A DNA stretch of 52,433 nt from an uncultured Spartobacteria bacterium (GTDB taxonomy: Bacteria > Verrucomicrobiota > Verrucomicrobiia > Chthoniobacterales > Chthoniobacteraceae): positions 1 to 52,433 of the forward strand of contig CAIXGS010000026.1 in the NCBI GenBank assembly GCA_903919125.1. Reading direction: 5' to 3'. The position numbers were made by a program, and so were the translations under genes. This document shows, one piece after another, positions 206-28,864 of this stretch. Under the pieces are notes generated by a model, which saw only the letters and a program-made list of their open reading frames with translations, was not told the origin of the DNA and did not search any database. How positions within the stretch are numbered: position 1 is the first letter of the stretch; each line of letters starts with the position of its first letter.

Positions 206-1009
206 TCAAGTCAGTTTCGTGGCGCCCATCCGCTTTTCAAAGCCCTCGTGGTTGCTCTGGCGGTAAGCCAGCGTATCGATGCCTAAATGTAGGTAATTAT
301 ACCCGAGGTTGGTCAGTCGCCTGGCGACTTCGTTCTTCTCGCTCCAAGTAAAAAAATTGTTCTCGAAGTGAATGATGCGAGGAAGAATCCCTCTATCTAA
401 AAACTGAATTAAAATATTATAATCATGCCCCTCAGTGTCAATCTGAAGTAGGTCAAATTCCTCAATTCCGTGCTTTAACAACAGACTGCTAACGGAAAGC
501 GAAGGGACTTCGAACTCCTTAACCTTCCCCTTGACTCCATCCCCATTAAATTTCACGTAACCTTTATTAAGGGATGCCAGCATGCCTGCGTGAAGATCAT
601 CCGATTCAAATGCGAAAAGCTTTACTGAACCGTCTCTTTCCGTAATCGCGGAATTTTCGAGAACCATTCCTGGGATTCCCCTGTAATTCTCCCTCAGCTT
701 TTTGAATATACTTGGATGCGGCTCCACCAACAACCCCTTCCAACCTGAATTCCGAACGTAACGGTACATCGGGTCTACGTGTTTTCCATCGTTGGCACCG
801 ATCTCGATAAATGAAAACTGACCGTTCTCCCGATAGACTTCCTGAACCACTAGGTCGAGAACGTTGATTGGAACATAACCAACAGGCGGCAATTTTTGGA
901 AACTGAATCCCGCTGCACGAAACACGCGTTCGACGATTTTCTGAAGCACAATTGATGGTTTTAGCATAAAAGTTCCAAGTTGTTCTGAATGAGCCTGCTC
1001 TGAAATCAA
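206..1009 (-). CDS. FkbM family SAM-dependent methyltransferase
   Basis: A 267-residue protein of the FkbM methyltransferase family, which O-methylates sugars or other hydroxyls using S-adenosylmethionine. The SAM-binding motif I is visible around residues 67-76 (FIEIGANDGKH, in place of the usual VDIGAN.G). It is followed by the acidic strand-2 end LLVEPHP and, near residue 190, the LLQIDTEGHDYNIL motif typical of FkbM proteins. Length is normal for the family. It is the last gene of the right-to-left run of glycan genes, separated from the membrane glycosyltransferase by about 244 bp, so it may have its own promoter. A role in methylating a surface polysaccharide is inferred from context; the acceptor is unknown. 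Confidence 0.88.
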   Translation of the reverse strand: MISEQAHSEQLGTFMLKPSIVLQKIVERVFRAAGFSFQKLPPVGYVPINVLDLVVQEVYRENGQFSFIEIGANDGKHVDPMYRYVRNSGWKGLLVEPHPSIFKKLRENYRGIPGMVLENSAITERDGSVKLFAFESDDLHAGMLASLNKGYVKFNGDGVKGKVKEFEVPSLSVSSLLLKHGIEEFDLLQIDTEGHDYNILIQFLDRGILPRIIHFENNFFTWSEKNEVARRLTNLGYNYLHLGIDTLAYRQSNHEGFEKRMGATKLT

Positions 1010-1253: not shown

Positions 1254-3041
1254 TTATCGTCTCTTGTAAATAAGCACAGGCCGTCTGGACGGGTGTGTTT
1301 GGGTGGACCCTATCAGCGTATATTCGGACTGAATCCAGCGGGAGAATTCGGGGAAGGTATGGTAGCGGGGTTGGGACCCCGGAGAGGATCCCGGAAATGT
1401 GAACTCATCGGAAGCATCGACAAAAAAGGCGGGCTTGGACGTTTGGACGTCGGAAAGAAACGCTCTAAGAGTAGGATTGATTTCGAGGGGTGGGTCGACC
1501 TCCAGATTGCCCGCAGCAAAGCGGGTCGCAGGGCGCAGTTGAGTAAAGACGTGCAGTTTTGCATACCACCCCCAGATACACAGAGAGTCGCCTGGCTTCG
1601 CAATTTGTTTGAGAGCATCGGCGATGGGATTCGTTTCTTGCCCCCACGACGCGAGGAAATGTTTGTTTTGGGAATAGATAGCGAAGGTGCTCCGAGCTTG
1701 AAACAGGCAAAGAAAAACAGCGACAAAAGCAATTCCAAAGCCGAGGCGCTTATCACGTGAAGCTTCTGAATGCGGGTCAAAGCTCGCAGATGAGTTTGTG
1801 TGGGTGGCAGGCGGGGCCTGTTTAGCTTTTTTGGAGGGAGCGGTTAAGACGAATTCTCCGAGTGAGGCCTGAATTTCCGAGGGTACCGTATTAAGCAGAG
1901 ATTGCTCGTTAAAGAGATTGGAAGCCAACCACCCGAAAACGAGGGTCGAGGGGCCAATCAGGAGCATCAAATAATGTGGAAAGCCAAAGCCCGCTCGAAG
2001 TATTCCGTATAGCATGACACCAAAAAGAGAGAGGACACCGGCCCCCAGTGACAGATTAGTAGGGGAAAAAAAGCGCGAGGGACGCCGCGCCAATTGGAGG
2101 AAGAGAGCCCCAACGGAGGCTGCGATAAGCACCATAATGAAGGCACTGAAGTCTGGTACGCCTTTGAAAAGGAAATCGACGGCCGAGATTCTGTGGCCAG
2201 AATTGGAATAGCGGAGGCCCGACTGAATGTAGAACTCCATAAAGTCAGGCCAAACTCCCGCAGCCGCTACAGGCGCGAGAATGAGGATGGGAACAGTTAG
2301 TCCACCGAGGATCTGAGCTAATGTATTCCTATTCTTTGACAGCGTCGTATCTTTCGTGGCCCATATGATAATAATTCCAAAAATAAACAATAAAACTCCT
2401 GCTGGGGCGACTTGAAGTTTAGTAAAAGGAAGCGCGCCGGTGAGGAAGCCAAGGAGGTATGCACGGGTTCGCGATGTTCTTTTACGCTGTCTAGCAATTA
2501 AATAGACGATCCAAGCGCATAGCGCTGACGGAAACTGCTCACTCGAAAAATGAAGAAAATCGAGGTTGAGAGTGCTTAAAAGTAATGTCGTTGCAGGCAT
2601 TGCAGCGAGTAGGGCCAGTCGTGTGCCAGCAATTTCACTGAGGCTGAAAATAGTCCCTGAAAGAAGTGCGAATGTGCAGAATAGTCCTGTAATTCGCGCC
2701 GCTAAGTAGCCGAGCTTGAGCCCAAGCAGTGGGGCCCACAGTAGAACCCAAGTGTTCAGAGGGCCGCTGGAACCGCCGACCACAGAACGCCAAGGCATTG
2801 GGTCGGATAGGTATTTGAGCGCCTGCGCCAAGATCTGGCTCTCATCGACGTTAATTTCTCCATTGTACAGCAGGCTGCGCACTCGCCACACTGGTAGCGC
2901 CACAGCGAGTAAAACCAGAAAAGTGGTCACTGTATTTTTCCACAGCCTACTTGTGAAATCCCCCTTCTTCAAGATTGGGAATAACGCTACAGCAAGTAAC
3001 AAAAGCCAGAGTGAAACCGCTAAACTTAATCTCAGATCCAT
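1254..3041 (-). CDS. GT-C type membrane glycosyltransferase (ArnT/PMT-like)
   Basis: A 595-residue integral membrane protein with about ten hydrophobic segments in its first 400 residues. A soluble C-terminal part follows from about residue 460, including the CIWGWYAKLHVFTQLRPATR stretch. Just after the first membrane segments lies a luminal/periplasmic loop with the acidic motif NVDESQIL (near residue 64). This matches the D/E-containing first loop of GT39/GT83-type polyprenyl-phosphate sugar transferases. Such enzymes transfer a sugar from a lipid-phosphate donor to lipid A, protein or glycan at the outer face of the cytoplasmic membrane. It sits among surface-glycan genes. The donor and acceptor cannot be read from the sequence, and a general glucosyltransferase-like or O-antigen transfer role is also possible. 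Confidence 0.7.
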   Translation of the reverse strand: MDLRLSLAVSLWLLLLAVALFPILKKGDFTSRLWKNTVTTFLVLLAVALPVWRVRSLLYNGEINVDESQILAQALKYLSDPMPWRSVVGGSSGPLNTWVLLWAPLLGLKLGYLAARITGLFCTFALLSGTIFSLSEIAGTRLALLAAMPATTLLLSTLNLDFLHFSSEQFPSALCAWIVYLIARQRKRTSRTRAYLLGFLTGALPFTKLQVAPAGVLLFIFGIIIIWATKDTTLSKNRNTLAQILGGLTVPILILAPVAAAGVWPDFMEFYIQSGLRYSNSGHRISAVDFLFKGVPDFSAFIMVLIAASVGALFLQLARRPSRFFSPTNLSLGAGVLSLFGVMLYGILRAGFGFPHYLMLLIGPSTLVFGWLASNLFNEQSLLNTVPSEIQASLGEFVLTAPSKKAKQAPPATHTNSSASFDPHSEASRDKRLGFGIAFVAVFLCLFQARSTFAIYSQNKHFLASWGQETNPIADALKQIAKPGDSLCIWGWYAKLHVFTQLRPATRFAAGNLEVDPPLEINPTLRAFLSDVQTSKPAFFVDASDEFTFPGSSPGSQPRYHTFPEFSRWIQSEYTLIGSTQTHPSRRPVLIYKRR

Positions 3042-3265: not shown

Positions 3266-4357
3266 TTAAATACCGCGGTTGGAGATAAGTTTTTTTAATT
3301 GCGAATTTTTGGAATAAGGCGACTCGATTTTGTCAATGCTAAGTGGCTCATCTTTAAGTATCGGGGCTGAGATAATCTCGCCATTCATAATTTCACGACA
3401 GGAAAGCTGTCCCTTGAGCAGAGGGATGGCCAAGTAAAAATCTTCCTTCATACTAGAGTGATTCAGAACATATCCAGGTTCCAAATTACGTTTAGCATAA
3501 ACGCCGCGAACCAATGCGTCCAAATATTTGACTTCCGTATCAGGAATTGAGCGACGATCTTGAGCACTGCCACCGCACATTTCCTTCGCTTTTCTAAAAG
3601 CCTTAAACCATCCATCAATCTGGTGCGGCAATGAATTATAGGCTGAAACCGAAACCCCATCTGAATCAATGTCAATGTGACGTTCAAACGTTCTAGCGCC
3701 CTTAGCGTACGCTATGAACATCGACGCATCCCAACTATGGTACTCATGTGAAGATAGGCCAACCGTCACACCAGGATACCGGTTGCGTAGATAATCCAAC
3801 TGATTCAATTCCAACTGATTGTCTTCAGTTGGATAGATCGAAACACAGTGGTTCACTGCAATAGGAATACCACGACTGGTAAAAAATTTCACAATCTCGT
3901 CAATACTCTTTTGCGAGGAACCGCCAGTGGAAAATGAAACCGGCTTGCGCGTGTCAGCAACCTTTTCAATGAGGAACCAGTCATTAATATCAGAACTAGC
4001 AATTTTTATGATATCGAGATCAAGCTCTTGACACAGCTCCACGGAGGCCTCGTCGAAAGGAGTGGCAGAGGTCAGACAACCATTTTCTCTCACCGCCTCA
4101 ACCAATATAGCGTATTCGGCGCGGCTGAGACGAGTGTCTCTAGTTTTTTTAATATAACGAATATCATCGCGGTTTCGATGGTTTTTGTGAATAAACGTTT
4201 CCACATCTCGAAACTGAAGTTTTATCGTGGCGGTTACGCTGTTAAAGCGCACAACCTGTGCGTACTCAGAGATTATCCTCAACCCACGCTCAACGCTCCC
4301 TAGGTGATTATTCGCCATCTCAAGAACGAAAAGATTATTAAATATATCGGCGCTCAT
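3266..4357 (-). CDS. NeuB/SpsE-like sialic-acid-synthase family protein
   Basis: A 363-residue protein of the N-acetylneuraminate synthase family, whose members condense phosphoenolpyruvate with an aldose to make 2-keto-3-deoxy sugar acids. The TIM barrel begins with the metal/PEP-binding segment VLEMANNHLGS. It continues with KLQFRDVETF (the usual K-Q), SATPFDEASV, DIIKIASSDIND, VNHCVSIYPT (matching the family LMHC.S.YPT) and the VGLSSHEYHSW and FERHIDID segments. A C-terminal SAF/antifreeze-like domain covers residues about 285-345. It follows the HAD phosphatase by 21 bp and is probably co-transcribed. No CMP-sugar synthetase is visible, so the product need not be a sialic acid. Confidence 0.85.
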   Translation of the reverse strand: MSADIFNNLFVLEMANNHLGSVERGLRIISEYAQVVRFNSVTATIKLQFRDVETFIHKNHRNRDDIRYIKKTRDTRLSRAEYAILVEAVRENGCLTSATPFDEASVELCQELDLDIIKIASSDINDWFLIEKVADTRKPVSFSTGGSSQKSIDEIVKFFTSRGIPIAVNHCVSIYPTEDNQLELNQLDYLRNRYPGVTVGLSSHEYHSWDASMFIAYAKGARTFERHIDIDSDGVSVSAYNSLPHQIDGWFKAFRKAKEMCGGSAQDRRSIPDTEVKYLDALVRGVYAKRNLEPGYVLNHSSMKEDFYLAIPLLKGQLSCREIMNGEIISAPILKDEPLSIDKIESPYSKNSQLKKLISNRGI

Positions 4358-4378
4358 AAAAATTTATTTTTTAAAAAA

Positions 4379-5044
4379 TTAACCAGATAGAGAAAATGCA
4401 AGCAAAGCTGCGAAGTCAGGAAGGTGAAAATCAATATGGTTTGGTAGCTTTGACGAAACGCGCCCGAACCCGTATTCAGCTGACGCAAAACGGAAACCGC
4501 AGGCTCGCGCGGCCTCTGCGTCATCCAAAGAATCGCCAATAAAAAGGGTTTTTTCTGGAGACGCTTTCAGACGATATGAGAGATCAAGAGTCGCCTCAAG
4601 CTTTGAGTCAAAGGGCGGAACACGGCTTTCTCTCGTGACGACTTCACAAAACAAACGGGAAATACCAAGCTGATCCAAGATGAGTTTTACAGGCACTTGG
4701 GGCTTGTTAGTGACAACATAACAGGTTGCCCCACTCTGGACAAGATGCGCGATACCGTCTATCACGCCTGGATAGGGTATAGTGCGGCACCATCCCTCAT
4801 TGTCGTAACTAATGCGGAAAGCAGCCTCCAAAGCATCAAGTTCAGAGGACGTGGGCGCATCATTAAGAGCTAACCTAAAGATTTCACGTATGGGCGGACC
4901 AATTAAAGAATCAATATTAGGCTTAGCTTTCCCAGGCATTACTTGATCCATCGCGAAGCAAAAGGAATAAGCGATTCCCGGCAGGGAATCAACCAAGGTT
5001 CCATCAAGATCAAATAACAGAGCATTGAAGCAACACGAGTTCAT
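4379..5044 (-). CDS. HAD-superfamily phosphatase (Gph-like)
   Basis: A 221-residue haloacid dehalogenase-type phosphatase. Motif I is LLFDLDGTLVDS near residue 10, with the two catalytic aspartates. Motif II is VVTNKP near residue 115, and motif III/IV is the FIGDSLDDAEAARACGF segment. A four-helix cap (C1 type) lies between motifs I and II, as in phosphoglycolate phosphatase. Its start overlaps the stop of the kinase gene by 4 bp (ATGA), which argues for translational coupling in the sugar operon. A likely role is removing a phosphate from a cyclitol or sugar intermediate. The substrate is inferred from context, and housekeeping phosphoglycolate phosphatase is less likely given the neighbours. 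Confidence 0.88.
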   Translation of the reverse strand: MNSCCFNALLFDLDGTLVDSLPGIAYSFCFAMDQVMPGKAKPNIDSLIGPPIREIFRLALNDAPTSSELDALEAAFRISYDNEGWCRTIPYPGVIDGIAHLVQSGATCYVVTNKPQVPVKLILDQLGISRLFCEVVTRESRVPPFDSKLEATLDLSYRLKASPEKTLFIGDSLDDAEAARACGFRFASAEYGFGRVSSKLPNHIDFHLPDFAALLAFSLSG

Positions 5045-6360
5045 TTCGAAGCAGCGACTCGGCAGGACAAGGCAAGAAGCCCCTCGAGGGCATCTTCTAC
5101 CTGGACGACTGAACGAGAGGATGGACCAAGTCTATCCAGAATTTCAGCACGCAAAACAGGTAATCTCTGCACAAGTCCGCCTGAAAAGACGACACAGGAC
5201 CAACCGGCAGGCGAAACCCGACCAGCGGAAATCGCGTAATTTTCCGACATAGCACGAAAAGCCGCTCGAAAAAAAGCCCCGACAGTAATGTCATCCTCAA
5301 GAATATGGGTAAACGCCCCTTCGCATCCGTAGGCTGTTGGGAAAAAGGAGAGATCAGCCTTTAGGGACCGAAGTTCTGCAGCCTCGGCCATTCGAGAGAT
5401 CTGACCCCAGGGGTCGCGAAGTTCGGTACCTTGGTCAGTCGCAAGTTCGCTGCACAGATGGAGCATTCGGTTCAAGGCCCGACCGGCCGGTAAGTGAGTG
5501 ATCGTGCGGAGCCAGCGACCATCGAAATATGGACGCAACTGCCAGTCACCCGCTTCCGGTTTATCAACCAGAACGGAAACCTGGGAACCCGTGGCGACAT
5601 TAACCGAGAGTTCTCCGGGTACCAAATCAACGCCAAAGAGCGCAGCCTGCTGATCCCCGACAGGAGTATAAACGGGAAAATCTCGCCCACACAGTCGAGC
5701 GCGGCCCACGGGAACAATTTCCGATTGAGGCTGGGGAAGCCGCAAGTCTTCCAGCCCAAGGGTCGTCAAAGCTTCGATATGCCACTCGCCACGCGCAACA
5801 TTAAATAATCCATGTGCAGCAGCGTTAGTTGAATGCGTAAAGGAAGCTGCACCCGTGAGACTAGCAGCGATGAAGTCCATCAGCGACAATGGCATAAGAC
5901 CTTTCACCAACTCACCGCCGCGAGCGATAGCATGGAGCGTGGCCACTGGAAGACCGGAGCGAAATTCATTGCCAAGTTCAGCAATTAAAGAAGCACCCAA
6001 CTTTTCTCGAGCGATCTCAAAATGAGAAACGCCATTCGCATCAGTCTCACTGCACCGCGCATCCTGCCAGGAAATAAAATTACCGACCGGCGCGCCGTCC
6101 GGTTGCGCTAATACGAAGCCGTGCATCTGGCCGCAGATGAGAATGCCTGCGCACGCACAAGATTGTGCGTCTAAAAGACGTTTAATCAGACGATGCACCG
6201 CAGTGAGCACAGATTGTATGCACACCTCTCTGCGTCGAGGTGGCAGCCCAGCCAGAAAGTTAGGAAACGGCTCTCTGTGGACATTGCTAAGCCCACTTCC
6301 AGGATGCAGCCAAGCCCCCTTCAAGAAGGTAGCCCCAAGATCAATCCCAATAAACGACAT
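5041..6360 (-). CDS. FGGY-family carbohydrate kinase, sedoheptulokinase-like
   Basis: A 439-residue sugar kinase of the FGGY family. It begins with the phosphate-1 motif GIDLGATFLKG. It contains GQMHGFVL and SWQDAR near residues 78-100, then the N-A-A-H-G-L-F-N segment, VGDQQAALFG (phosphate 2) and NVATGSQVSV. The G-Q-M-H-G and W-Q-D-x-R pair, together with GD.QA, is what I recall of sedoheptulokinase (SHPK) rather than xylulo- or glycerol kinases; this is from memory, not a search. It would convert a ketose, plausibly sedoheptulose, to its phosphate. Its start codon lies 20 bp inside the end of the upstream cyclase gene and it is coupled to the HAD gene by 4 bp. This physical coupling fits supply of sedoheptulose 7-phosphate to the cyclase. 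Confidence 0.85.
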   Translation of the reverse strand: MSFIGIDLGATFLKGAWLHPGSGLSNVHREPFPNFLAGLPPRRREVCIQSVLTAVHRLIKRLLDAQSCACAGILICGQMHGFVLAQPDGAPVGNFISWQDARCSETDANGVSHFEIAREKLGASLIAELGNEFRSGLPVATLHAIARGGELVKGLMPLSLMDFIAASLTGAASFTHSTNAAAHGLFNVARGEWHIEALTTLGLEDLRLPQPQSEIVPVGRARLCGRDFPVYTPVGDQQAALFGVDLVPGELSVNVATGSQVSVLVDKPEAGDWQLRPYFDGRWLRTITHLPAGRALNRMLHLCSELATDQGTELRDPWGQISRMAEAAELRSLKADLSFFPTAYGCEGAFTHILEDDITVGAFFRAAFRAMSENYAISAGRVSPAGWSCVVFSGGLVQRLPVLRAEILDRLGPSSRSVVQVEDALEGLLALSCRVAASK

Positions 6361-7429
6361 TGTATCGAGCTAGATAGTTTCCAACATCCGAGACGAGAGT
6401 TTCATCATAAGCCGTGGGAACTATGCGAAGACCGCCAATGCGGTCAGGCAGAACAAGATTTAACTTTCCGTCTGCCACTTTTTTATCGCGACGGGTTCCG
6501 TCTATTAACTCATCCACGGTAAAACCGTTGGGCAGCTTCCACGCAAAATGACGTGCAAGAAAAACATGAACCTCTTGAAAATGTGATTCATCAATCAACT
6601 GCCGTCGCCATGCGAGGAAATTAATTAAATCAATGCCCCAAGCCACAGCAATCCCATGAGGGATACAGTGCTGCGTGATTGCCTCAAGCGCATGGCCAAA
6701 AGTATGTCCGTAATTTAAAATGCGACGAATATCGCCCTCATATTCGTCCTCTTGAATCACTACCCTTTTAACTTCTAGGCTTTGCCTGATAAACTTCGCA
6801 AGAGATTCGTTGCGCCAACCATCGGTATTTACTGTATTCGCCAGCTCACGAAAAATTTCAGGCCGCGAGCGCGTAAGATGTAGTTTTACAATTTCACCAT
6901 ATCCAGAACATAGCTCTACATCCGAGAGCGTCTCAAGAAAAGGAAGGCAAATCCAGACATGAGCAGGCGAGTGGAAAACGCCAAGTTGGTTTTTAAAAGC
7001 ACCGAGGTTGATGCCACATTTTGCACCAATACAGCTATCGGCCTGCCCTAAAAGAGTGCTGGGCGCGTAATGCCAGCGTAACCCCCTGTAATAATTATGG
7101 GCAGAAAACTGACCTATATCCTGAATTATCCCTCCACCTATCACCAGTACGTTGGATTGTTTGGTCGCGTTTGATCGTTGAAAAAACTCCCAAACACGAG
7201 TGACCCCGAGCGGTGTCTTCTCCTCCTCAGTGGCTGAAACAAGAAGCGTAGGCCGTGAGGAAAGTAACGGCTCGAGGACCGCTGCATAAGTGGATGCGAC
7301 ATTTTGGTCGATTACTACAATCGCGCGTGGCACAGCAAGCATCGCGGAGACGAGATCGGCAACAGTCGGGGGAAATGTGACTTCGTAATCACCTTGGCCG
7401 GAATGAATAGGCAGGGGAGGTATTTTCAT
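6341..7429 (-). CDS. Sugar phosphate cyclase (3-dehydroquinate synthase-like, divergent)
   Basis: A 362-residue member of the 3-dehydroquinate synthase fold, a Zn- and NAD-dependent family that cyclises sugar phosphates. The NAD-binding motif is IGGGIIQDIGQF. The nucleotide/substrate loop is APSTLLGQADSCIGAKCG followed by FKNQLG. The three metal ligands are all present: E in GYGEIVKL, H in NYGHTFGHALE and H in IPHGIAVAWG. The loop mixes features of AroB (QxDS-IG) with features of sedoheptulose-7-phosphate cyclases (LLG, GAK, KNxLG), so it is probably not the housekeeping aroB. It is adjacent to the SDR gene with no gap and overlaps the kinase gene. EEVS-, EVS- or DDGS-like activity is a hypothesis that needs an alignment of active-site residues. 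Confidence 0.85.
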   Translation of the reverse strand: MKIPPLPIHSGQGDYEVTFPPTVADLVSAMLAVPRAIVVIDQNVASTYAAVLEPLLSSRPTLLVSATEEEKTPLGVTRVWEFFQRSNATKQSNVLVIGGGIIQDIGQFSAHNYYRGLRWHYAPSTLLGQADSCIGAKCGINLGAFKNQLGVFHSPAHVWICLPFLETLSDVELCSGYGEIVKLHLTRSRPEIFRELANTVNTDGWRNESLAKFIRQSLEVKRVVIQEDEYEGDIRRILNYGHTFGHALEAITQHCIPHGIAVAWGIDLINFLAWRRQLIDESHFQEVHVFLARHFAWKLPNGFTVDELIDGTRRDKKVADGKLNLVLPDRIGGLRIVPTAYDETLVSDVGNYLARYNVVYWD

Positions 7430-8128
7430 CTATTGAAGAAGGAAGCCTCCGTCGATTACGACGGTTTGGCCAGTCAGGTACGTATTATCTGCTGAAGCAA
7501 GAAAAACAACCAGACGCGCAATTTCAGACGGTTCAGCTAGTCGACCAATGGGAACTTGGGCGGCTAAAGCACTAATTTGATCAGGAGTGTTGTTAGAGCG
7601 TGTCAGGTCGGTTTCCACAAATCCAGGGCACACCGCATTTACTAAAACACCATGCGGCGCAAACTCAAGAGCGGCACTGCGGGTGAGGCTGTTAAGCCCC
7701 GCTTTTGCCGCGCTATACGGAGCGCGACCGGAACGCGCAACAATACTATAACAAGAGCTTATATTCACAATCCGCCCCCAACGACGGGAACACATTTCAC
7801 GAGACAAATGCTGCAGAAGAAGCATTGGGCCAGTTAGATTGACGGCAAGTGCACGGCTCCACGTATCCAAATCAATGCCGTCTATAAGGCCTACGGGATT
7901 CTCTCCCGCATTATTAACAAGGATATCCACCGATGGGCGGGGGCGAGTTAGCCACGCGAGTACGGAATCAGGCGAGCTAAGATCTAGTTCAGCGCGAGAG
8001 GGAGAAAGCACCGTAGTTCCTTGCGCTCTCATGGCCTCGGCAATGGCTAAACCAATACCTCTAGCTGCGCCAGTGACCAAGGCAACACGACCTGCAGGAG
8101 GGGAGGATGGAAGAGCGGCAGGGCTCAT
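7430..8128 (-). CDS. SDR-family NAD(P)-dependent oxidoreductase
   Basis: A 232-residue classical short-chain dehydrogenase/reductase. It shows the Rossmann glycine motif TGAARGIG at about residues 19-26, the NNAGEN motif, the catalytic serine in NISSCYS, and YSAAKAG (catalytic Tyr and Lys in YxxxK). The C-terminal GQTVVIDGGF is typical of FabG-like members. The gene overlaps the TPP enzyme gene by 4 bp and directly abuts the cyclase gene. It probably reduces or oxidises a keto-cyclitol or keto-sugar made by the neighbouring enzymes. FabG-type ketoacyl reduction cannot be excluded from sequence alone, but the context argues against it. Confidence 0.87.
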   Translation of the reverse strand: MSPAALPSSPPAGRVALVTGAARGIGLAIAEAMRAQGTTVLSPSRAELDLSSPDSVLAWLTRPRPSVDILVNNAGENPVGLIDGIDLDTWSRALAVNLTGPMLLLQHLSREMCSRRWGRIVNISSCYSIVARSGRAPYSAAKAGLNSLTRSAALEFAPHGVLVNAVCPGFVETDLTRSNNTPDQISALAAQVPIGRLAEPSEIARLVVFLASADNTYLTGQTVVIDGGFLLQ

Positions 8129-9939
8129 GGATTAAGAAGCGGCACTATCATATTTTCACGCAACTCCTCACGACTCAGAAACGGCGCCATATCTTCGGGT
8201 GGCGATGTAACCATTCTGCCATCATCGAGTTTCCGGGAGGATAGCTTAGGGGCGAACGGTTGTCGCAAATCGAGCACTACTTCGCAAAACGTGGGACCGT
8301 CGGTTTCGAGGGCGACACGAATTCCTTCGTCGAGCTCGTCGTGAGTTGATATGCGACAAAAAGGCATCCCGAAAGCATGAGCCACGCGTTCCCAATCTGG
8401 GAAGCTGAGCCCGGAGTCGGTGCCGCATCCCACTATGTTATCCTTAAAAAAGGCATTCTGTGTTTGACGAATCGAATGATAACCGTGGTTGAAAAGGACG
8501 AATATCTTCACAGACAAACGTAGACCAGAAATGGTCTGAAGCTCCTGAAGATTCATCATGATGCTGCCATCACCCGCCAAACATACGACGCGTTTGGACG
8601 GATCCTGTGCATAAGCCGCACCTATCGCTGCAGGAAGCTCAAACCCCATGGGTGCGGAGCCAGAGTTGTGAAAAAGCCGCATTCCAGGACCGACACGTGC
8701 AGCTTGGAAGGCAGTTACGCAAGCTGTCCCATCAGCCGTTACTATAGTTTCATCCTGATTAGTTTGCGCAAATAGGCGATCCATGAAGCAATAGGGATTG
8801 ACACTAACGGCATCCCGCCAATAAGACGGCAACACAACTGGATAGCGGGCAAGTCTCTCTTTGCACCAATTGCGCCAAGAAGCAAAGCGTTCCGGATAAC
8901 TACTATGTGCCTGCGCCTGGGCCAGCAGGATCGGCAAAAACTCCGCAAGGTTGGCGTGGATCGGCAAGTCAGGGCGAACAGTTGGCTTTTTTAGTTCTGC
9001 AGCATCAACGTCCACCCAGACCTTGTATGCATGGCGCGCAAAGTTTTCCCAATTGTAGGAGATAAGTCTTATGTTAAGCCGGCAACCTAGAATTAAAAGG
9101 AGGTCGCTGTTCTGCACTGCAAAATTACCAGCACGATCCCCAACCGAGCCGGGACGACCCGCATAGCAGTCATGCGAATCAGGAACCAAATCGTTGTTGT
9201 TCCATGCTGTGACTACCGGCACCCCGAGACAATCCAACAACCGCAAAAAAGTGAGATACTCGCCAGAAAGTCGCACACCGGAACCAGCATAGATTACCGG
9301 TCGCTCGGCTTTAGACAATCTATCGAGAAACTCTTCGCAGGCACCCGAAATATCTAGAGTTTCCCAACTGATGGCATCCTCAATCGGGTCATAGCCTTCG
9401 AGGGTCGCGGGATCAATTCTCGCCCCTTGCACATCGATGGGTATGTCCAGCCAGACAGGCCCCGGGCGCCCAGTAATAGCGAGATGTAACGCCCTTTCAA
9501 GATGATAACGGATGGACTGAGGATCCTGTACCAATACGGCGTACTTGGTGACGCCTTTCACCATGCTGACAATATCCACTTCCTGGTCACCCAGCTGTCG
9601 CAGGGGCAAATTGGTGCTACTTACAAGCGTCTCCCACTTGGATTGCCCCGAAACCACAATCATAGCCATCGAGTCCACGTATGCTCCGTAAACACCTGTT
9701 ATGGCGTTGGTTCCACCTGGCCCCGTGGTTACATTGACAGCTGCCATCCGGTTTGAGACGCGAAAATATCCCTCAGCCGCAATCGCGCATGCCTGTTCGT
9801 GATGACAACAAACCACCGATATATCCTTATGCCGCCCAAACGCATCATTAAGATGCATGGCACCACCACCCGTGACCAAAAACACATGACTAATGCCATT
9901 TGAGGCGAGAGTTTGAACAATGTAATCAGCTACGCGCAT
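8125..9939 (-). CDS. Thiamine-pyrophosphate-dependent enzyme, acetolactate-synthase/IolD-like
   Basis: A 604-residue TPP enzyme with the three-domain layout of acetolactate synthase. The PYR domain (about residues 1-170) has VTGGGAMHLNDAFG and the activating glutamate in CCHHEQACA. A central domain runs to about residue 345. The PP domain has the GDGSIMMNLQELQT motif (GDG...N metal-binding), followed by NHGYHSIRQTQ. Relatives include acetolactate synthase, the inositol-catabolic IolD, which acts on a cyclohexanedione, and YerE, which attaches a two-carbon branch to a nucleotide sugar. It is the first gene of the coupled block. Position beside cyclase, SDR and kinase genes favours sugar or cyclitol chemistry over valine biosynthesis. 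No small regulatory subunit gene is adjacent. Confidence 0.85.
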   Translation of the reverse strand: MRVADYIVQTLASNGISHVFLVTGGGAMHLNDAFGRHKDISVVCCHHEQACAIAAEGYFRVSNRMAAVNVTTGPGGTNAITGVYGAYVDSMAMIVVSGQSKWETLVSSTNLPLRQLGDQEVDIVSMVKGVTKYAVLVQDPQSIRYHLERALHLAITGRPGPVWLDIPIDVQGARIDPATLEGYDPIEDAISWETLDISGACEEFLDRLSKAERPVIYAGSGVRLSGEYLTFLRLLDCLGVPVVTAWNNNDLVPDSHDCYAGRPGSVGDRAGNFAVQNSDLLLILGCRLNIRLISYNWENFARHAYKVWVDVDAAELKKPTVRPDLPIHANLAEFLPILLAQAQAHSSYPERFASWRNWCKERLARYPVVLPSYWRDAVSVNPYCFMDRLFAQTNQDETIVTADGTACVTAFQAARVGPGMRLFHNSGSAPMGFELPAAIGAAYAQDPSKRVVCLAGDGSIMMNLQELQTISGLRLSVKIFVLFNHGYHSIRQTQNAFFKDNIVGCGTDSGLSFPDWERVAHAFGMPFCRISTHDELDEGIRVALETDGPTFCEVVLDLRQPFAPKLSSRKLDDGRMVTSPPEDMAPFLSREELRENMIVPLLNP

Positions 9940-10142: not shown

Positions 10143-11102
10143 CTAATCGAAGTTCAGACGCTCTTTTTCAACCACCAGCGGTCTGTTAAGGGTATGGGTC
10201 ACGACAAGTGCAATGTATTCGCCGACCAACCCTAACATTATCAGCATAACTCCCATCATAAAAAACATTCCAACTACAACAGGAGCAATACCTATTTGCA
10301 TGCTGTCCCAAAATAATAGCTTCCTCAATAAATAAAATGTACCTGCGGCGAAGCTTAATACGCTAACACCAACGCCAAATAGAGTCGACAAGCGCAACGG
10401 CAATTTAGAGTGATTTACTAACCCTAAAAGTGCCATATCTAAATACACGTAGAACGTACCCTTCGAGATCCCACGCTGGCGATAAGGCTTGTCAAAGGGC
10501 ACTCTTGCAATCGGGAAGCCCAATTCACAAACAAGCCCCCTCAGGTATGGATAAGGATCATTTATCTGTCGAAGAATGGAGATCACTTGTTTATCATACG
10601 CCCCAAAGCCGGTGTAGTTTTCAATCATATTCACGTCTGATAGTCGGTTAATTAACCCATAGTAAATATGCCTGAGTATTGGATATATGCCAGTCTCTGC
10701 GGTTGAGCGTCTCACGGCAGCTACCACCTTAAATCCGTCCTCCCACTCACGGAGAAGCTCACGAATCAGTTCTGGGGGATCTTCCAAATCAGATGCCATC
10801 AAAATGACAACATCCCCTTGGGCTTGCAACATTGCATGGTAGCTTGATCGAATATGACCAAAGTTTCGAACATTAAAAATCGCCTTGAAACGCCTATCTG
10901 TGATCGCCACAGAACGAATAACATCCTGAGTCGTGTCTGTTGAAGCATTGTCAGCAATCAATACCTCATACTCGTAACGGGGCATTGAACTCATTACTTC
11001 GGAAATACGCCTGTGTAATTCCGGAATATTCTCCGACTCATTAAAGCAGCCCGAGACAATTGTTACAAGATGTCGCTTGATGGTGTGATGATGGTCCTGC
11101 AT
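10143..11102 (-). CDS. GT2 family glycosyltransferase (polyprenyl-phosphate sugar transferase-like)
   Basis: A 319-residue protein with an N-terminal GT-A domain. It begins VTIVSGCFNESENIPEL, has the nucleotide-binding ADNASTD segment and the metal-binding ASDLEDPPE (DxD-like DLED), then the KGTFYVYLDMALLGL stretch that precedes the membrane part. Two C-terminal membrane helices lie at about residues 235-260 and 270-300. The plan matches DPM1/GtrB/ArnC-type enzymes, which load a sugar from a nucleotide donor onto undecaprenyl phosphate. It could supply the lipid-linked donor for the GT-C protein at 1254-3041; that pairing is inferred. The gene is separated from smc by a 350-bp gap. Confidence 0.88.
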   Translation of the reverse strand: MQDHHHTIKRHLVTIVSGCFNESENIPELHRRISEVMSSMPRYEYEVLIADNASTDTTQDVIRSVAITDRRFKAIFNVRNFGHIRSSYHAMLQAQGDVVILMASDLEDPPELIRELLREWEDGFKVVAAVRRSTAETGIYPILRHIYYGLINRLSDVNMIENYTGFGAYDKQVISILRQINDPYPYLRGLVCELGFPIARVPFDKPYRQRGISKGTFYVYLDMALLGLVNHSKLPLRLSTLFGVGVSVLSFAAGTFYLLRKLLFWDSMQIGIAPVVVGMFFMMGVMLIMLGLVGEYIALVVTHTLNRPLVVEKERLNFD

Positions 11103-23378: not shown

Positions 23379-24308
23379 ATGATCGACGTCGTCAACCTCA
23401 CCAAACGCTACGCAGGATTCACAGCCGTGCGCGAAATTTCCTTCCAAGTTCAACGTGGCGAGGTCGTCGGTTTTCTGGGCCCAAACGGCGCTGGGAAAAG
23501 CACCACCATGCGTATGCTCACGGGATACCTCCCGCCCTCTTCCGGAAGAGCATCCATCGCGGGTTTTGATATTTTTGAACAATCCATCGAGGCCCGTCGC
23601 CACATCGGCTACCTCCCTGAAAGCACCCCCCTCTACCACGACATGAGGGTTCACGAATACCTACGCTACAGAGCCAGCCTCAAAGGTGTCGAAGCCTCCA
23701 AAGTCAAGGAACGCGTCGGCGACGTTCTGGAAATGTGCGACCTGCGCGAGAAGGAACGTGCCCTGATCGGCACCCTCTCCAAAGGCCAAAGACAGCGTGT
23801 GGGCCTTGCCGATGCCCTAGTTCACGACCCCGAACTCCTCATTCTCGATGAACCCACCATTGGGCTCGACCCCAACCAAATCCGACAAGTCCGCGAGCTC
23901 ATTAAAAACCTCGCCAATCGCCGGACTGTACTAATTTCTACCCACATCCTTCCAGAGGTTGAAATGATGTGCTCCAGAGTGGTGGTCATCCATAAAGGCC
24001 GCATTCGCGCCTCGGATACCGCAGAAAATCTTTTGCTAAAGCATCGGGCCGCAGGAGAAATACGGCTCGAAGTCCACCAACCCCCACAAAATACTTACGC
24101 CCAGTTGGCCGCCCTGCGGGGTGTAAAAGAAGTTTCAGAGAAAATGCTCGGCGAGGAATGCTCCTTTCTTTTGCGCACAGACGCCGAAACGGATCTTACG
24201 GAGGCTGTCCTACAACTAGCACAAACCGGCAAATGGAGCCTGCGCAGCCTGCTTCGCCGCAAACCCACTTTGGAAGACGTCTTCGTCGACCTCACCCAAG
24301 GCGACTAA
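23379..24308 (+). CDS. ABC transporter ATP-binding protein, GldA-like
   Basis: A 309-residue ATPase subunit. Walker A is GPNGAGKST at residues 34-42, the signature is LSKGQRQRVGLA near 134, Walker B is LLILDEPTIGLD and the switch His is in STHILPE. The region after residue 215 is the extra C-terminal domain seen in ABC-2 and GldA/NatA-like ATPases. It is the first gene of a plus-strand set with a permease, a GldG-like protein and a DUF4340 protein. In Bacteroidota the GldA-GldF-GldG complex supports gliding. In other phyla the set is common but its substrate is not known. Confidence 0.92.
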   Translation: MIDVVNLTKRYAGFTAVREISFQVQRGEVVGFLGPNGAGKSTTMRMLTGYLPPSSGRASIAGFDIFEQSIEARRHIGYLPESTPLYHDMRVHEYLRYRASLKGVEASKVKERVGDVLEMCDLREKERALIGTLSKGQRQRVGLADALVHDPELLILDEPTIGLDPNQIRQVRELIKNLANRRTVLISTHILPEVEMMCSRVVVIHKGRIRASDTAENLLLKHRAAGEIRLEVHQPPQNTYAQLAALRGVKEVSEKMLGEECSFLLRTDAETDLTEAVLQLAQTGKWSLRSLLRRKPTLEDVFVDLTQGD

Positions 24309-24370
24309 AACGCCCCAAATTCTACCCGAGACCTTCCTAGGATTTACAACTCCCCACCCCTGAATTTTTT

Positions 24371-25126
24371 ATGCGCACATTCATCACCTTGCTAGGCCGA
24401 GAAGTGAAAAGCTTCCTCTACTCGCCCATCGCCTACGTGGTTCTCTTTTTCTTCCTCATCGCCACCGGTTTCAATTTCTACTCCGGAGTTTCCTTCCTCA
24501 ATCAGGGCCCCTCCGAAGTCACAGTCGTGGAGGCCGCTTTCAACACCGTCCTCTTCTGGTTTCCCTTCGTATTAATCTTCCCCCTCATCACCATGCGGAC
24601 CTACGCAGATGAATTCCGAATGGGAACCATAGAAACACTTGCCACCGCCCCCATCAGCGACTCGCAGATTGTCCTCTCCAAATTCCTCGGAGCCTTCATT
24701 TTTTACATCCTGCTCTGGGCCCCAAGCTTTCTCTACTTCACCGCCTTTGAACAAATCACGGGCAAGGCCGCCGCCGTCGCCGCGGGCGCTTATGGGGGTA
24801 GCTACCTCCTCCTGCTTCTGCTCGGCGCGTTTTACGTCGCCCTCGGTTGCCTTGCTTCAGCCCTCACCAACGAACAAATCAACGCCGCCGTCATGACGTT
24901 CGTGGCCATCTTTGGCTTCTTCGTCACCGGCTTACTTGGTTTCATCCTCAACTCCCCAAGCCAGGCCGTTCGCGACCTCATTTCCTACTTCTCAGCCGTA
25001 GAACACATGGCGGACTTCTCACGGGGGCTCATCGATAGCCGCCCTCTTGTTTGGTACATCTCCATGACTTCCTTCATCTTGTTCCTAAACCTCCAAGTCT
25101 TCCAGTACCGCAAGTGGAAAGCCTAA
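24371..25126 (+). CDS. ABC-2 type permease, GldF-like
   Basis: A 251-residue membrane protein with six predicted helices. It starts with a cytoplasmic RTFITLLGREVKSFLYSP segment typical of ABC-2/GldF permeases, followed by IAYVVLFFFLIATGF. The loop TMRTYADEFRMGTIETLATAPI is a conserved feature of this family (E-x-x-x-G-T-x-E). It begins 62 bp after the ATPase gene and should form the channel with it. Confidence 0.9.
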   Translation: MRTFITLLGREVKSFLYSPIAYVVLFFFLIATGFNFYSGVSFLNQGPSEVTVVEAAFNTVLFWFPFVLIFPLITMRTYADEFRMGTIETLATAPISDSQIVLSKFLGAFIFYILLWAPSFLYFTAFEQITGKAAAVAAGAYGGSYLLLLLLGAFYVALGCLASALTNEQINAAVMTFVAIFGFFVTGLLGFILNSPSQAVRDLISYFSAVEHMADFSRGLIDSRPLVWYISMTSFILFLNLQVFQYRKWKA

Positions 25127-25184
25127 TCCAGAGTCTGTACTCCCCCGCTTTCCTTAAAACTTTACGGATCCTCCAAGACCTCCT

Positions 25185-26753
25185 ATGGACCAAACTCCTC
25201 CTTCTCCCACCCCGCCCGAATCTAAAGTAAATGCCTCTCAGGCAGATACTCACAATTCCACTTCGAGCACCATCCGCCGCCTTGTCATCGGTGCCAATGT
25301 CCTCTCCCAAGTCGTCATTTTTACCGTGATTGTTGCCATGGTCAACTATGTCAACTTTCGGCACTTCAAACGCTGGGACTTTTCTCGTAGCCAAAAATAC
25401 GCCCTGGCACCCCTCACCAAAAACCTACTCGCTAACCTCAAAAAGCCGGTCAAAGCCGTCGTCTTTTTTCCCAACTTCCAAGTCATCGCTCAAGACGTCA
25501 CCTCACTGCTGCGAGAATACGAGTACGCCTCTGATAAAAAACTGACCGTCGAGGTCGTCGACCCCTACCGCAACCTGCTCAGAGCAAAAGAGCTTTCCGA
25601 AAAATACAAATTCGGTTCCAGCGACAACATCGTGATCTTGGATGTCGAGGGTAAATCAAAATTCGTCAATGCCGCGGATATGGCCGAGATGGATAATTCC
25701 GGCGCCATGATGGGGCAGCCCCCAACCGTCAGGGCCTTTAAAGGCGAAGAGGCCCTTACCTCCGCCCTGCTGGAAATTACGGAAGAAAAACAAAGCAAAG
25801 TCTACTTCCTCACCGGCCACGGTGAACCCTCTCCCATGGGTGAGGACCTCTCTGCGCTCAAGACCTTCATCGACCGTCAGAACATCAAATCTGATCTTCT
25901 TAACCTTAACAACGTCGACGCCGTTCCAGCAGATGCATCTGCCGTCGCCCTTCTTGGGCCGAAGGCCGACCTCTCAGAACGCGAGCTCAAGCTCCTCACT
26001 GATTATTGGAATGACCGAAACGGACGCCTCTTTCTCGCTATCGGCGGCAACCTGAAAGTACCGCGCCTAGCCGACTGGCTGGCCACATCAGGCGTCGCAC
26101 TCCAGCAGGATGTCGTCGTCAAAAATGGCACCATGCTTGTCCTCCAAGGGGGACAACCCACCCTGCGCACGGGCATCGTCACCAACACCGTGGGATTCAC
26201 TCCGCCCAATGCCAAAACCGTACTCAAGGATGCAGCTGGCTTTGACCTCCAACTCGCAGGCCTCACCCAATCCCTTACCATCAACCCCCAAAAGGCCAAT
26301 ACGGAAAAAATTCGCTCCACAATACTCATCACAACGACCGCCGACTACTGGGGCGAAACCGAGTACTCTCTGGGCTCCCCAGCGCCAGCCACCAAGGATC
26401 CAGAAAAAGATCACTTAGGGCCACTTTCGCTCGCCCTTGCATTGGAGCACGGTGGCATTCCCGATCCTCGCGTCAAAGTGGAAACCGGTAGGATGGTGCT
26501 CGTTGGTAATTTCAGTTTTCTCTCCAATGAGGGCCTCCGAGCCTCCGAGGGTGGCTTAGATTTTGCCGTCAACTCCCTCAACTGGCTCATCAACCGTGAA
26601 CAATTGGCCGGCATCCCCCCAAAACCCAAGCAGGCGGTCAGCCTGAGTCTGAACGAAAAGCAAATGGGCGATCTGGCACTGGCAGTCATAGGGATCATCC
26701 CATGCATTTTTGCCCTTATCGGCGTGGCTGTGTGGGCGCGCCGCCGAAGTTAA
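25185..26753 (+). CDS. GldG family protein (ABC-associated)
   Basis: A 522-residue protein of the GldG/PF09822-type family. It has an N-terminal membrane helix around residues 28-50 (VLSQVVIFTVIVAMVNYV), a conserved NFRHFKRWDFSRSQKYAL segment just after it, a large periplasmic domain with the FLTGHGEPS motif, and a C-terminal helix near 495-517 followed by ARRRS. This layout matches proteins that partner GldA/GldF-like ABC transporters. It starts 58 bp after the permease. The periplasmic domain may bind the unknown substrate or couple the transporter to outer structures. Confidence 0.9.
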   Translation: MDQTPPSPTPPESKVNASQADTHNSTSSTIRRLVIGANVLSQVVIFTVIVAMVNYVNFRHFKRWDFSRSQKYALAPLTKNLLANLKKPVKAVVFFPNFQVIAQDVTSLLREYEYASDKKLTVEVVDPYRNLLRAKELSEKYKFGSSDNIVILDVEGKSKFVNAADMAEMDNSGAMMGQPPTVRAFKGEEALTSALLEITEEKQSKVYFLTGHGEPSPMGEDLSALKTFIDRQNIKSDLLNLNNVDAVPADASAVALLGPKADLSERELKLLTDYWNDRNGRLFLAIGGNLKVPRLADWLATSGVALQQDVVVKNGTMLVLQGGQPTLRTGIVTNTVGFTPPNAKTVLKDAAGFDLQLAGLTQSLTINPQKANTEKIRSTILITTTADYWGETEYSLGSPAPATKDPEKDHLGPLSLALALEHGGIPDPRVKVETGRMVLVGNFSFLSNEGLRASEGGLDFAVNSLNWLINREQLAGIPPKPKQAVSLSLNEKQMGDLALAVIGIIPCIFALIGVAVWARRRS

Positions 26754-26938
26754 ATTGTTGATCGAATTGCTGAATTGCTCTGACAGCCCCTCCACAGGGC
26801 GCCTTTGCCACTCGATTAGCACATTTTTGAACATCCTTAAAACTATTCGGGCGCCAAACCCGTAGCGAATCTGGACGCTTTGATAATAGTCGCCACCGTA
26901 TCTCCCTCCCACCCGTTCGATCTCTCCTTTTTTACCCC

Positions 26939-28864
26939 ATGAAACCGCGTATTACCCTCACGCTTGCCGCCGTTGCCGGCACACTTTTCGCGTACATCTG
27001 GTTCGTCGACCGGCATCAAAACACAACAAGAGAAGACGCTGAATCCTCGGCCAAAGTACTGCAACTAGACCGGTCTAAAATCTCTCACATCACTATAAAA
27101 AACGCGGGAACACAAATTCAACTCGCCAAGCAAAACGGCCTCTGGTCCCTCACCCAGCCCGTCTCGGACCCAGCAGACGCCGCCGTGGTGGATCAGCTAC
27201 TCTCCCTGTTGGAAAACCTGCGTCACGACTCCAAAATCACGCCTTCAACGGCGAGTAAGGAAGCAGATCAACTTAAAGAGTTCGGCCTAGATGAGTCAGA
27301 ACTTTCCATCAAACTGAGCTCCGAGGGTGCAAAAGATACAGAATTACTCCTCGGAAAAGACAGTGCCATTGAGGGCAAATTTTATGTTCGGCTTCAGGGC
27401 CAACCCGCTGTGTACGTCATCCGCAACGCTCTGCGCAACCAACTCACTCGCAAGGCAGATGATTTTCGTGATCACAAACTCGCTTCTATCCCGACTCAAT
27501 CAGTTCAAAAATTGACCGTAAAAACCAACGAGGGAGAGTTGGAATTGGAACGCAAAAACAGCCACTGGGACCTCATTAAACCCATGCGCGCCAGAGGGGC
27601 AGATTCTAAAGTGAACGACCTTCTCGCCGCAGTTCTGAATGCCAATTTAACCCAGTTTTTGCCAGCGGCACCCTCTCCAGAACAGGGTCTTTCTGAACCC
27701 CGCGCCACATTCACATTCCAAGTCGAAGGCCAAAGCAAACCCGTCATACTCCACATCGGAGCCACCCCTGCTGGGGATGAAAATAAGGACAAATCCTTTG
27801 CCAAAATCTCGACGCGAGATGCCGTCACCATCCTCCCGAATAACGCATTTGAACCTTTACTCAAAACCCGCCCAAACGACCTGCGCGAGCGCAAACTTTT
27901 GCGGGTGGAGTCCGATATCGTGGACCGCATCACCATTGAGCCCGCAGGCAAACCGCCCATCGTGCTGGCGCGCAAGGCAGAAACCTGGATTCACAAAATG
28001 GGTGACGCCGAAGGCCCTCTCCGTGAAGGTCTCGCTGCTAAACTCATAGCGGACCTCCAAGCTGCGGAAACCGTCAACTTTGTTGCGGACCTGGCCCCAG
28101 ACCTCACCCCCTACGGCTTGGCGCAGCCACAACTCAGCGTCCGGCTTTCCTCATTCGCAAGCGGTAACACCGCCGAGACACAAGCTGGAGAAAAACCCAT
28201 CGTCACCGTACTTTTTGGCTCCGTGGAGGGCGACCATGGATACGCTAAATTGGACGATGAACCCTTCATAGTAGCCACACCCAAGACGCTACTTGCCTCA
28301 TTCCCTACCGAACTCTTGGACATCCTGCCTACCGCCCCTCTGGAGGCCGTAGTCGAATTTAAAAAAGAGGCTGTCGAAGGTATCCAAACTGTCTTCGCAG
28401 GCAAATCCACGCGATTAGAGAAAGGCGCGGACGGGTGGACTGTTTCCAGCGGCACCCAAGCGACCGTAGAGGTTCCAGCAACCACAACAAAACCGGATCC
28501 AACCGCTATTGAGGGCTTTTTAGATTACTTGATAGAACTCCAAGCTGGAAGACGTACCGGCACGCATGAGTCTCTCATAAAGGCGCTTGAAACTCCCCTA
28601 CTTTCCATCACGGTAACGCTCCAAAAGGCTGCACCCGCGCAAAAAGTCAGTATCTCACTAGGACACCCCATCAAGGACGGTTCCTTTCCAGCAACCGTCA
28701 CCGGAAAAGAAGGCGTTTTTCTGCTCAACGAAGCGAGTGAAGCCGCGTTGGAAAAAGCCATTGCCTCCCTCCGACTGCCGTCGCCTCCTCCGGAAAACGC
28801 ACCCTCAGGACAACCTGAATCTAACCTAGTACCGAAGTCCCCAGCAGCGAACCCTCCGAAATAA
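26939..28864 (+). CDS. DUF4340 domain protein following the GldAFG-like genes
   Basis: A 641-residue protein with one N-terminal hydrophobic segment (ITLTLAAVAGTLFAYIWFV) acting as membrane anchor or uncleaved signal. A long periplasmic region of repeated beta-rich modules follows, each with an LxLDRSKISxIxIKN or KLTVKTNEGELELER-type strand pattern, a W-x-L/I-T/K-P motif, and a GLDESEL or GLAQPQL turn. This is the pattern of DUF4340 proteins, which are habitually encoded next to GldG. The C-terminus is rich in Pro. A 185-bp gap without genes separates it from GldG, yet the same order recurs in many genomes as I recall. Function unknown. Confidence 0.85.
   Translation: MKPRITLTLAAVAGTLFAYIWFVDRHQNTTREDAESSAKVLQLDRSKISHITIKNAGTQIQLAKQNGLWSLTQPVSDPADAAVVDQLLSLLENLRHDSKITPSTASKEADQLKEFGLDESELSIKLSSEGAKDTELLLGKDSAIEGKFYVRLQGQPAVYVIRNALRNQLTRKADDFRDHKLASIPTQSVQKLTVKTNEGELELERKNSHWDLIKPMRARGADSKVNDLLAAVLNANLTQFLPAAPSPEQGLSEPRATFTFQVEGQSKPVILHIGATPAGDENKDKSFAKISTRDAVTILPNNAFEPLLKTRPNDLRERKLLRVESDIVDRITIEPAGKPPIVLARKAETWIHKMGDAEGPLREGLAAKLIADLQAAETVNFVADLAPDLTPYGLAQPQLSVRLSSFASGNTAETQAGEKPIVTVLFGSVEGDHGYAKLDDEPFIVATPKTLLASFPTELLDILPTAPLEAVVEFKKEAVEGIQTVFAGKSTRLEKGADGWTVSSGTQATVEVPATTTKPDPTAIEGFLDYLIELQAGRRTGTHESLIKALETPLLSITVTLQKAAPAQKVSISLGHPIKDGSFPATVTGKEGVFLLNEASEAALEKAIASLRLPSPPPENAPSGQPESNLVPKSPAANPPK

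Follow-up and report, generated by a model that had tools for sequence, protein, structure and literature searches.

What does a bacterium build with an operon in which a cyclase of the 3-dehydroquinate synthase (DHQS) kind is encoded next to a carboligase dependent on thiamine diphosphate (ThDP)? This question is raised by six minus-strand genes at positions 3266-9939 of a 52,433-nucleotide stretch of DNA from an uncultured Spartobacteria bacterium (contig CAIXGS010000026.1 of assembly GCA_903919125.1), the whole of which is called the window here. The initial annotation had read the operon as a C7-cyclitol or unusual-sugar pathway for a surface glycan, starting from sedoheptulose 7-phosphate (S7P). 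The observations gathered here comprise gene content and linkage, the clade and residues of the cyclase, gain, loss and exchange of a gene cassette, and genes for a cytidine diphosphate (CDP) sugar in the same genome. They support an unusual surface sugar, a divergent cyclase, a YerE-like ThDP enzyme and conserved linkage, and speak against the sedoheptulose route. We propose that its product belongs to the branched surface sugars of the yersiniose/erwiniose class, and that a ring-forming cassette added to the operon would close a carbocycle on an aldol-made chain; we give this reading an even chance of being right. The six genes, whose families are backed by Pfam and NCBIfam profile searches, are as follows.

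8125-9939, minus strand: ThDP-dependent carboligase of the JanthE/YerE group (TPP in gene orders below), 604 amino acids, Pfam TPP_enzyme_N/M/C
7430-8128, minus strand: classical short-chain dehydrogenase/reductase (SDR), 232 amino acids, Pfam adh_short_C2
6341-7429, minus strand: DHQS-like sugar phosphate cyclase of a TIGR04425-type clade, 362 amino acids, assigned by NCBIfam, tree and residues
5041-6360, minus strand: FGGY-family kinase, 439 amino acids, Pfam FGGY_N (62 bits)
4379-5044, minus strand: HAD-family phosphatase, 221 amino acids, Pfam HAD_2
3266-4357, minus strand: putative NeuB-like 3-deoxy-2-ulosonate synthase, 363 amino acids, Pfam NeuB (133 bits)

The genes are as tightly coupled as had been claimed. 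TPP overlaps the SDR gene by 4 bp, the cyclase gene abuts the SDR gene and overlaps the kinase gene by 20 bp, the kinase and HAD genes overlap by 4 bp, and 21 bp separate the HAD gene from the NeuB-like gene. The predicted linkage was also recovered in a neighbourhood survey: L039 and the Lachnospiraceae/Ruminococcaceae loci L042-L044 repeat the order TPP-SDR-cyclase-FGGY, and L040 (Candidatus Troglogloeales) has the complete set of six, so the arrangement is not due to chance.

The cyclase is the most unusual member of the operon. Its best named NCBIfam model is TIGR04425 (330 bits, under the curated cutoff of 400), and it stays under the cutoff of the AroB model (246 bits against 305). A scan of genome contigs provided 80 cyclase relatives from many phyla. 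Window-type cyclases were compared with AroB, EboD, EEVS-like, DDGS and other references in a maximum-likelihood tree and in a larger quick tree. In the former, they form their own clade with support of 100/100, separate from both the AroB clade (98/96) and the S7P-cyclase group (99/94), so that the window cyclase lies outside AroB and does not group with EEVS, DDGS or EboD. Two members of the same 100/100 clade, from L034 and L035, exceed the TIGR04425 cutoff. Judged by its sequence, the window cyclase is thus neither AroB nor a characterised S7P cyclase, and sides with TIGR04425 by clade. Two further cyclase relatives are encoded in the genome: a true AroB, whose gene neighbours purC (L001), and an EboD-like protein on contig C4 (L002:904-2199).

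Active-site residues were compared in A. nidulans numbering, with positions assigned by motif. The window cyclase retains D146, K152, N162, E194, K197, K250, R264, L267, N268, H271, H275, H287 and K356, which include the three zinc ligands (E194, H271 and H287) that had been noted as intact. Of these, the AroB-type residues K250, R264, N268, H275 and K356 are shared by every one of the 77 cyclases placed in three sub-clades, whereas the EEVS/DDGS references have M at 250, D or A at 268, P at 275 and other residues at 264 and 356. None of the S7P-cyclase changes (K250M, N268D or A, H275P) occurs in the window cyclase. Residues that all these cyclases have in common must be needed at the phosphate and hydroxyl end that the substrates share; the five that differ are therefore probably placed around C1-C3, where 3-deoxy-D-arabino-heptulosonate 7-phosphate (DAHP) carries its carboxylate. 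The residues therefore argue for a DAHP-like acid and against S7P as the substrate, and together with the tree they tell against the earlier assignment as an S7P cyclase. The AlphaFold model has a mean confidence (pLDDT) of 93, and its best Foldseek matches are DHQS structures.

The ThDP enzyme connects the operon with branched sugars. Its top PDB match is JanthE (8rph, 422 bits, compared to 230 bits for the next), the HHEQ and GDG motifs are visible in the alignment, and the protein belongs to the JanthE/YerE group, nearer to JanthE than to acetolactate synthase, which agrees with the earlier YerE-like assignment. According to two reports, JanthE is a YerE-like enzyme of unknown physiological substrate that forms tertiary alcohols from 2-oxo acids and ketones (PMC12188165), YerE acts on CDP-3,6-dideoxy-4-ketoglucose, enzymes like YerE introduce branches into CDP-4-keto sugars, and the preferred donors of ErwE are hydroxylated 2-oxo acids (PMC12247030). 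Another contig of the same genome (C6) carries genes for a CDP-glucose 4,6-dehydratase and RfbH, both matched at full score, and an adjoining cytidylyltransferase-type gene. In L171, from the same genus, RfbF-RfbG-RfbH lie directly upstream of TPP-SDR-cyclase on one contig, and most TPP loci lacking the cyclase also contain RfbF/G/H. The set on C6 is a complete RfbF-RfbG-RfbH (L144:678-4506, equal to G000:C6:678-4506); its RfbH open frame has an N-terminal extension of about 150 amino acids, which may be a start-site artefact. A search of 145 genomes from the family of L045 did not recover JanthE's own locus, the relatives there reaching 35-39% at best.

A donor for such an enzyme may come from the NeuB-like protein or its substitutes. 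The window protein matches PDB entry 3g8r with 226 bits and keeps the metal-binding His of 'SxH' and 'ERH' in an alignment with NmNeuB. It scores 115 and 114 bits with the NeuB and PseI equivalogs (cutoffs 340 and 400) and so is no standard sialic or pseudaminic acid synthase. We counted TPP-cyclase loci by neighbourhood clustering and a hidden Markov model recount, which gave 37 loci. An aldol-type gene is present in 33 of them: 14 are HpcH/HpaI-like, 8 are NeuB of the window type and 11 resemble 4-hydroxy-2-oxovalerate aldolase (matching NCBIfam PRK08195/TIGR03217). The other four loci come from contigs 3-11 kb long, of which most are visibly truncated. Pfam recognises the HpcH/HpaI-like family weakly (28.7 bits), and its predicted fold (pLDDT 92) matches HpaI aldolases. 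No locus (0/37) holds two of the three locus-typical types; L081 additionally has, elsewhere on its locus, an HpaI-like gene of the sort that usually accompanies cyclase sub-clade III. Swaps are found between close relatives, with NeuB in L035 and the aldolase in L049, NeuB in L105 amid aldolase loci, and NeuB in the window, L038 and L040 as opposed to the aldolase in L041. All three enzyme types are known to produce 2-oxo acids from pyruvate or phosphoenolpyruvate (PEP), and as interchangeable makers of such an acid they would suit the ThDP donor. Strong aldol partners occur in 31 of 37 TPP loci with the cyclase and in 12 of 46 without it (p=1.8e-7, with no phylogenetic correction). TPP and aldol genes also adjoin in loci without the cyclase (L156-L158, L172-L174 and L178), which fits an aldol product as the TPP donor. 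The NeuB-like protein, previously taken to extend a cyclitol, is thus better read as a maker of 2-oxo acid tied to the ThDP enzyme.

Comparison of closely related loci separates a core from an insertable unit. L037 has the order TPP-SDR-cyclase-aldolase-GT2 (GT2, family 2 glycosyltransferase) and L178 has TPP-aldolase-GT2; the shared genes match at 83-85% DNA identity (83% and 85% on the two sides), and 58 bp in L178 replace 1.7 kb containing SDR and cyclase in L037. The only match of the L178 genome in the cyclase-family search is at the level of AroB. Some 20 kb of DNA is common to L090 and L110 at 88-95% identity, and within it SDR-cyclase-FGGY-NeuB (4.2 kb) is exchanged for aldolase-SDR-cyclase (2.5 kb). 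The borders are gene-exact, from the stop codon of the epimerase-like gene in front to the TPP start codon, and the two cyclases are only 34% identical. Furthermore, L174, L173 and L172 (from the genus, family and order of the window, respectively) have TPP, HAD and NeuB without SDR, cyclase and FGGY, and the Burkholderiales-type loci L156-L158 have TPP-NeuB without the cyclase. With these differences, SDR-cyclase, joined by FGGY in the window's sub-clade, behaves as an insertable unit, and TPP, the aldol enzyme, RfbF/G/H and GT2 form the core. Since aldolase and TPP are the same with and without SDR-cyclase, the cassette probably works on the aldol-made chain and does not supply the aldehyde. 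Joint exchange of the aldol gene and the cyclase suggests that the two are probably matched.

The cassette genes vary in their distribution. The SDR cluster was found in 73 loci of the neighbourhood survey and nearly always adjoins the cyclase. The kinase is present in 11 of the 15 loci of the window's cyclase sub-clade versus 1 of 66 others; in the quick tree all FGGY loci fall in the single sub-clade II (98), L087 and L090 being left unplaced by the maximum-likelihood tree. It is probably the cyclase substrate, or a precursor of that substrate, that the kinase phosphorylates. Its matches are to general models and are weak (FGGY_N as listed, xylulokinase at 48 bits, glycerol kinases in PDB), so the label of sedoheptulokinase-like finds no support. 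Both kinase and HAD genes are absent from many related loci, a further point against the sedoheptulose route.

Combining these data, we infer the following pathway, in which all substrates, the sequence of the cyclase and ThDP steps and the end product are conjectural. The NeuB-like enzyme would extend an aldose or aldose phosphate by three carbons from PEP, yielding a 3-deoxy-2-oxo acid; the HAD protein could remove a phosphate, and the FGGY kinase would phosphorylate the far end of the chain, giving the cyclase its leaving phosphate where the chain has none. With NAD+ and zinc, the cyclase would eliminate the phosphate and close the carbocycle as AroB does with DAHP, a chemistry that proceeds through C5 oxidation, phosphate elimination, reduction and aldol closure (PMC7144000). 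The SDR would then reduce (or oxidise) the ring ketone. The ThDP enzyme would decarboxylate a 2-oxo acid and join it to the C4 ketone of CDP-4-keto-3,6-dideoxyglucose, and a GtrB-like GT2 would transfer the sugar onto a lipid carrier. In its general form, the proposal is that ring chemistry of the shikimate type enters surface polysaccharides through a cassette that is widespread and can be exchanged, the carbocycle being formed by a DHQS-like enzyme on a C3-extended chain that is linked through a C-C bond to a nucleotide sugar by the ThDP enzyme. Such a monosaccharide type has not yet been assigned to genes, and we put this general form forward tentatively, at somewhat less than an even chance.

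Several points weigh against the proposed pathway. One is the order of its two central steps. Closure on the free acid is favoured by the AroB-type residues, but the product would then no longer be a 2-oxo acid donor; closure after attachment to the CDP-sugar is favoured by the donor requirement of the ThDP enzyme, but the CDP-sugar would have to fit a DHQS-type pocket. Thus, neither order is clean. In addition, the AroB-type residues could simply be ancestral, and sub-clade III cyclases occur without TPP, so that the cyclase substrate may differ between loci.

Four alternative readings were weighed. The operon could make two products, with NeuB, cyclase and SDR yielding a quinate-like acid by the logic of DAHP synthase and DHQ synthase, and the ThDP enzyme using pyruvate to form a yersiniose-type sugar. 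The AroB-type residues, the joint travel of aldol gene and cyclase, and the many TPP loci without an aldol gene of the types sought, as expected with a pyruvate donor, agree with this; the adjacency of TPP and aldol genes in cyclase-less loci fits the aldol product as donor, and we regard two products as unlikely. Alternatively, SDR and cyclase could act upstream and produce a carbocyclic aldehyde, and the NeuB-like enzyme or aldolase would then use pyruvate or PEP to lengthen this aldehyde into the TPP donor. A true 2-oxo acid would thereby be left for the ThDP enzyme, aldol enzymes do require an aldehyde, and the exchange in L090/L110 involves the cassette jointly with the aldol gene, but the nearly identical aldolase and TPP of L037 and L178, with and without SDR-cyclase, suggest an aldolase substrate independent of the cassette, which makes this order of events quite unlikely.

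The route of the initial annotation, in which S7P made by the FGGY kinase is converted by the cyclase into a C7 cyclitol ketone, in the manner of EEVS/DDGS, and then completed and extended by the remaining enzymes, has in its favour the shared superfamily and fold, the FGGY genes adjoining this cyclase sub-clade and the GmhA-like isomerases adjoining sub-clade III. It is decidedly improbable in view of the cyclase's clade and residues and a kinase whose matches show no specific link to ketoheptoses, and it leaves NeuB and TPP unexplained. That the cyclase is simply a second AroB for the shikimate pathway, as fold and residues might suggest, is very hard to accept given the separate AroB beside purC, the position outside the AroB clade and the constant context of surface-sugar genes.

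Under the pathway that we propose, the operon can be placed among known systems. With the yersiniose, erwiniose and caryophyllose pathways (YerE/ErwE/JanthE) it has in common the TPP family, the CDP-4-keto-3,6-dideoxyglucose genes and the polysaccharide context, and it differs in the additional SDR, cyclase and kinase; the accessible portions of the literature on these pathways mention no cyclase cassette. The TPP part is of a known kind, and its joint pathway with a cyclase was not found described in the literature searched. The cyclase shares fold, zinc ligands and the compared residues with AroB, but has different partner genes and is a second copy in a genome with true AroB. EEVS, DDGS and EboD belong to the same superfamily and are likewise used outside the shikimate pathway. 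The literature search found no paper naming TIGR04425 ('AroB-related putative sugar phosphate phospholyase (cyclizing)') and nothing relevant on sugar phosphate cyclases in surface glycans. Bradyrhizose, a C10 bicyclic, inositol-fused O-antigen sugar of photosynthetic Bradyrhizobium with an 11-gene cluster including a nucleotide-sugar 4,6-dehydratase (PMC4743980), was considered for its inositol-fused C10 structure and rejected, as no link emerged: its literature names no ring enzyme, and the window cyclase type was found in only 2 of 397 sampled genomes of the order to which a Hyphomicrobiales relative belongs.

Cyclases of the TIGR04425 type are present in very many phyla; they frequently carry the annotation AroB and have no assigned function. 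The pairs with and without the cassette, or with exchanged cassettes, offer a direct route to what the ring-forming genes add, through the glycans of matched strains. If correct, our proposal would link carbocycle formation to branched-sugar biosynthesis, explain why unrelated aldol enzymes stand beside JanthE-like ThDP enzymes, and suggest substrates for JanthE-type biocatalysts, whose natural substrates are reported as unknown (PMC12188165).

Further genes flank the operon on the same strand, the first upstream (5') of TPP and the other two downstream (3') of the block.

10143-11102, minus strand: GtrB/ArnC-like GT2 (Pfam Glycos_transf_2; NCBIfam PgfS/ArnC-like)
1254-3041, minus strand: hydrophobic protein of 595 amino acids with many hydrophobic stretches in its sequence
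206-1009, minus strand: FkbM-type methyltransferase (Pfam PF05050)

The GT2 is a probable polyprenyl-phosphate glycosyltransferase, and the same GT2 is found in many TPP loci. The 595-amino-acid protein had no match in Pfam or NCBIfam searches and is a possible GT-C glycosyltransferase. A promoter scan gave 11 hits, no excess over the 11.9 expected from shuffles. Elsewhere in the window, a candidate O-antigen ligase at 33184-34488 (Wzy_C, 31.6 bits, just below the cutoff of 31.7) points to additional polysaccharide genes, and positions 23379-28864 contain ABC transporter genes with an auxiliary protein and a DUF4340 protein, resembling a gliding-type ABC set.

A second type of locus, which lacks TPP, houses about 41 sub-clade III cyclases (L036, L045-L116) from SAR86, Pelagibacteraceae, Bacteroidota and other groups. 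These loci encode a GmhA-like isomerase, a Gfo/Idh protein (inositol dehydrogenase-like), a D-2-hydroxyacid dehydrogenase, an HpaI-like aldolase and KdsB/NeuA-like cytidine monophosphate (CMP) transferases, and look like another undescribed pathway; K197 is replaced by His in 20 of the 41 cyclases. One such cyclase locus includes a CMP-type cytidylyltransferase fused to a cupin domain (L036:7520-8674). Finally, a parallel pairing of a ThDP enzyme with a cyclase was observed in a peptide-synthetase cluster on a Streptomyces plasmid (L127:2965-7845), where genes for a ThDP enzyme, a DHQS-like cyclase, a BadF-type kinase and an inositol monophosphatase-like protein lie in a row.

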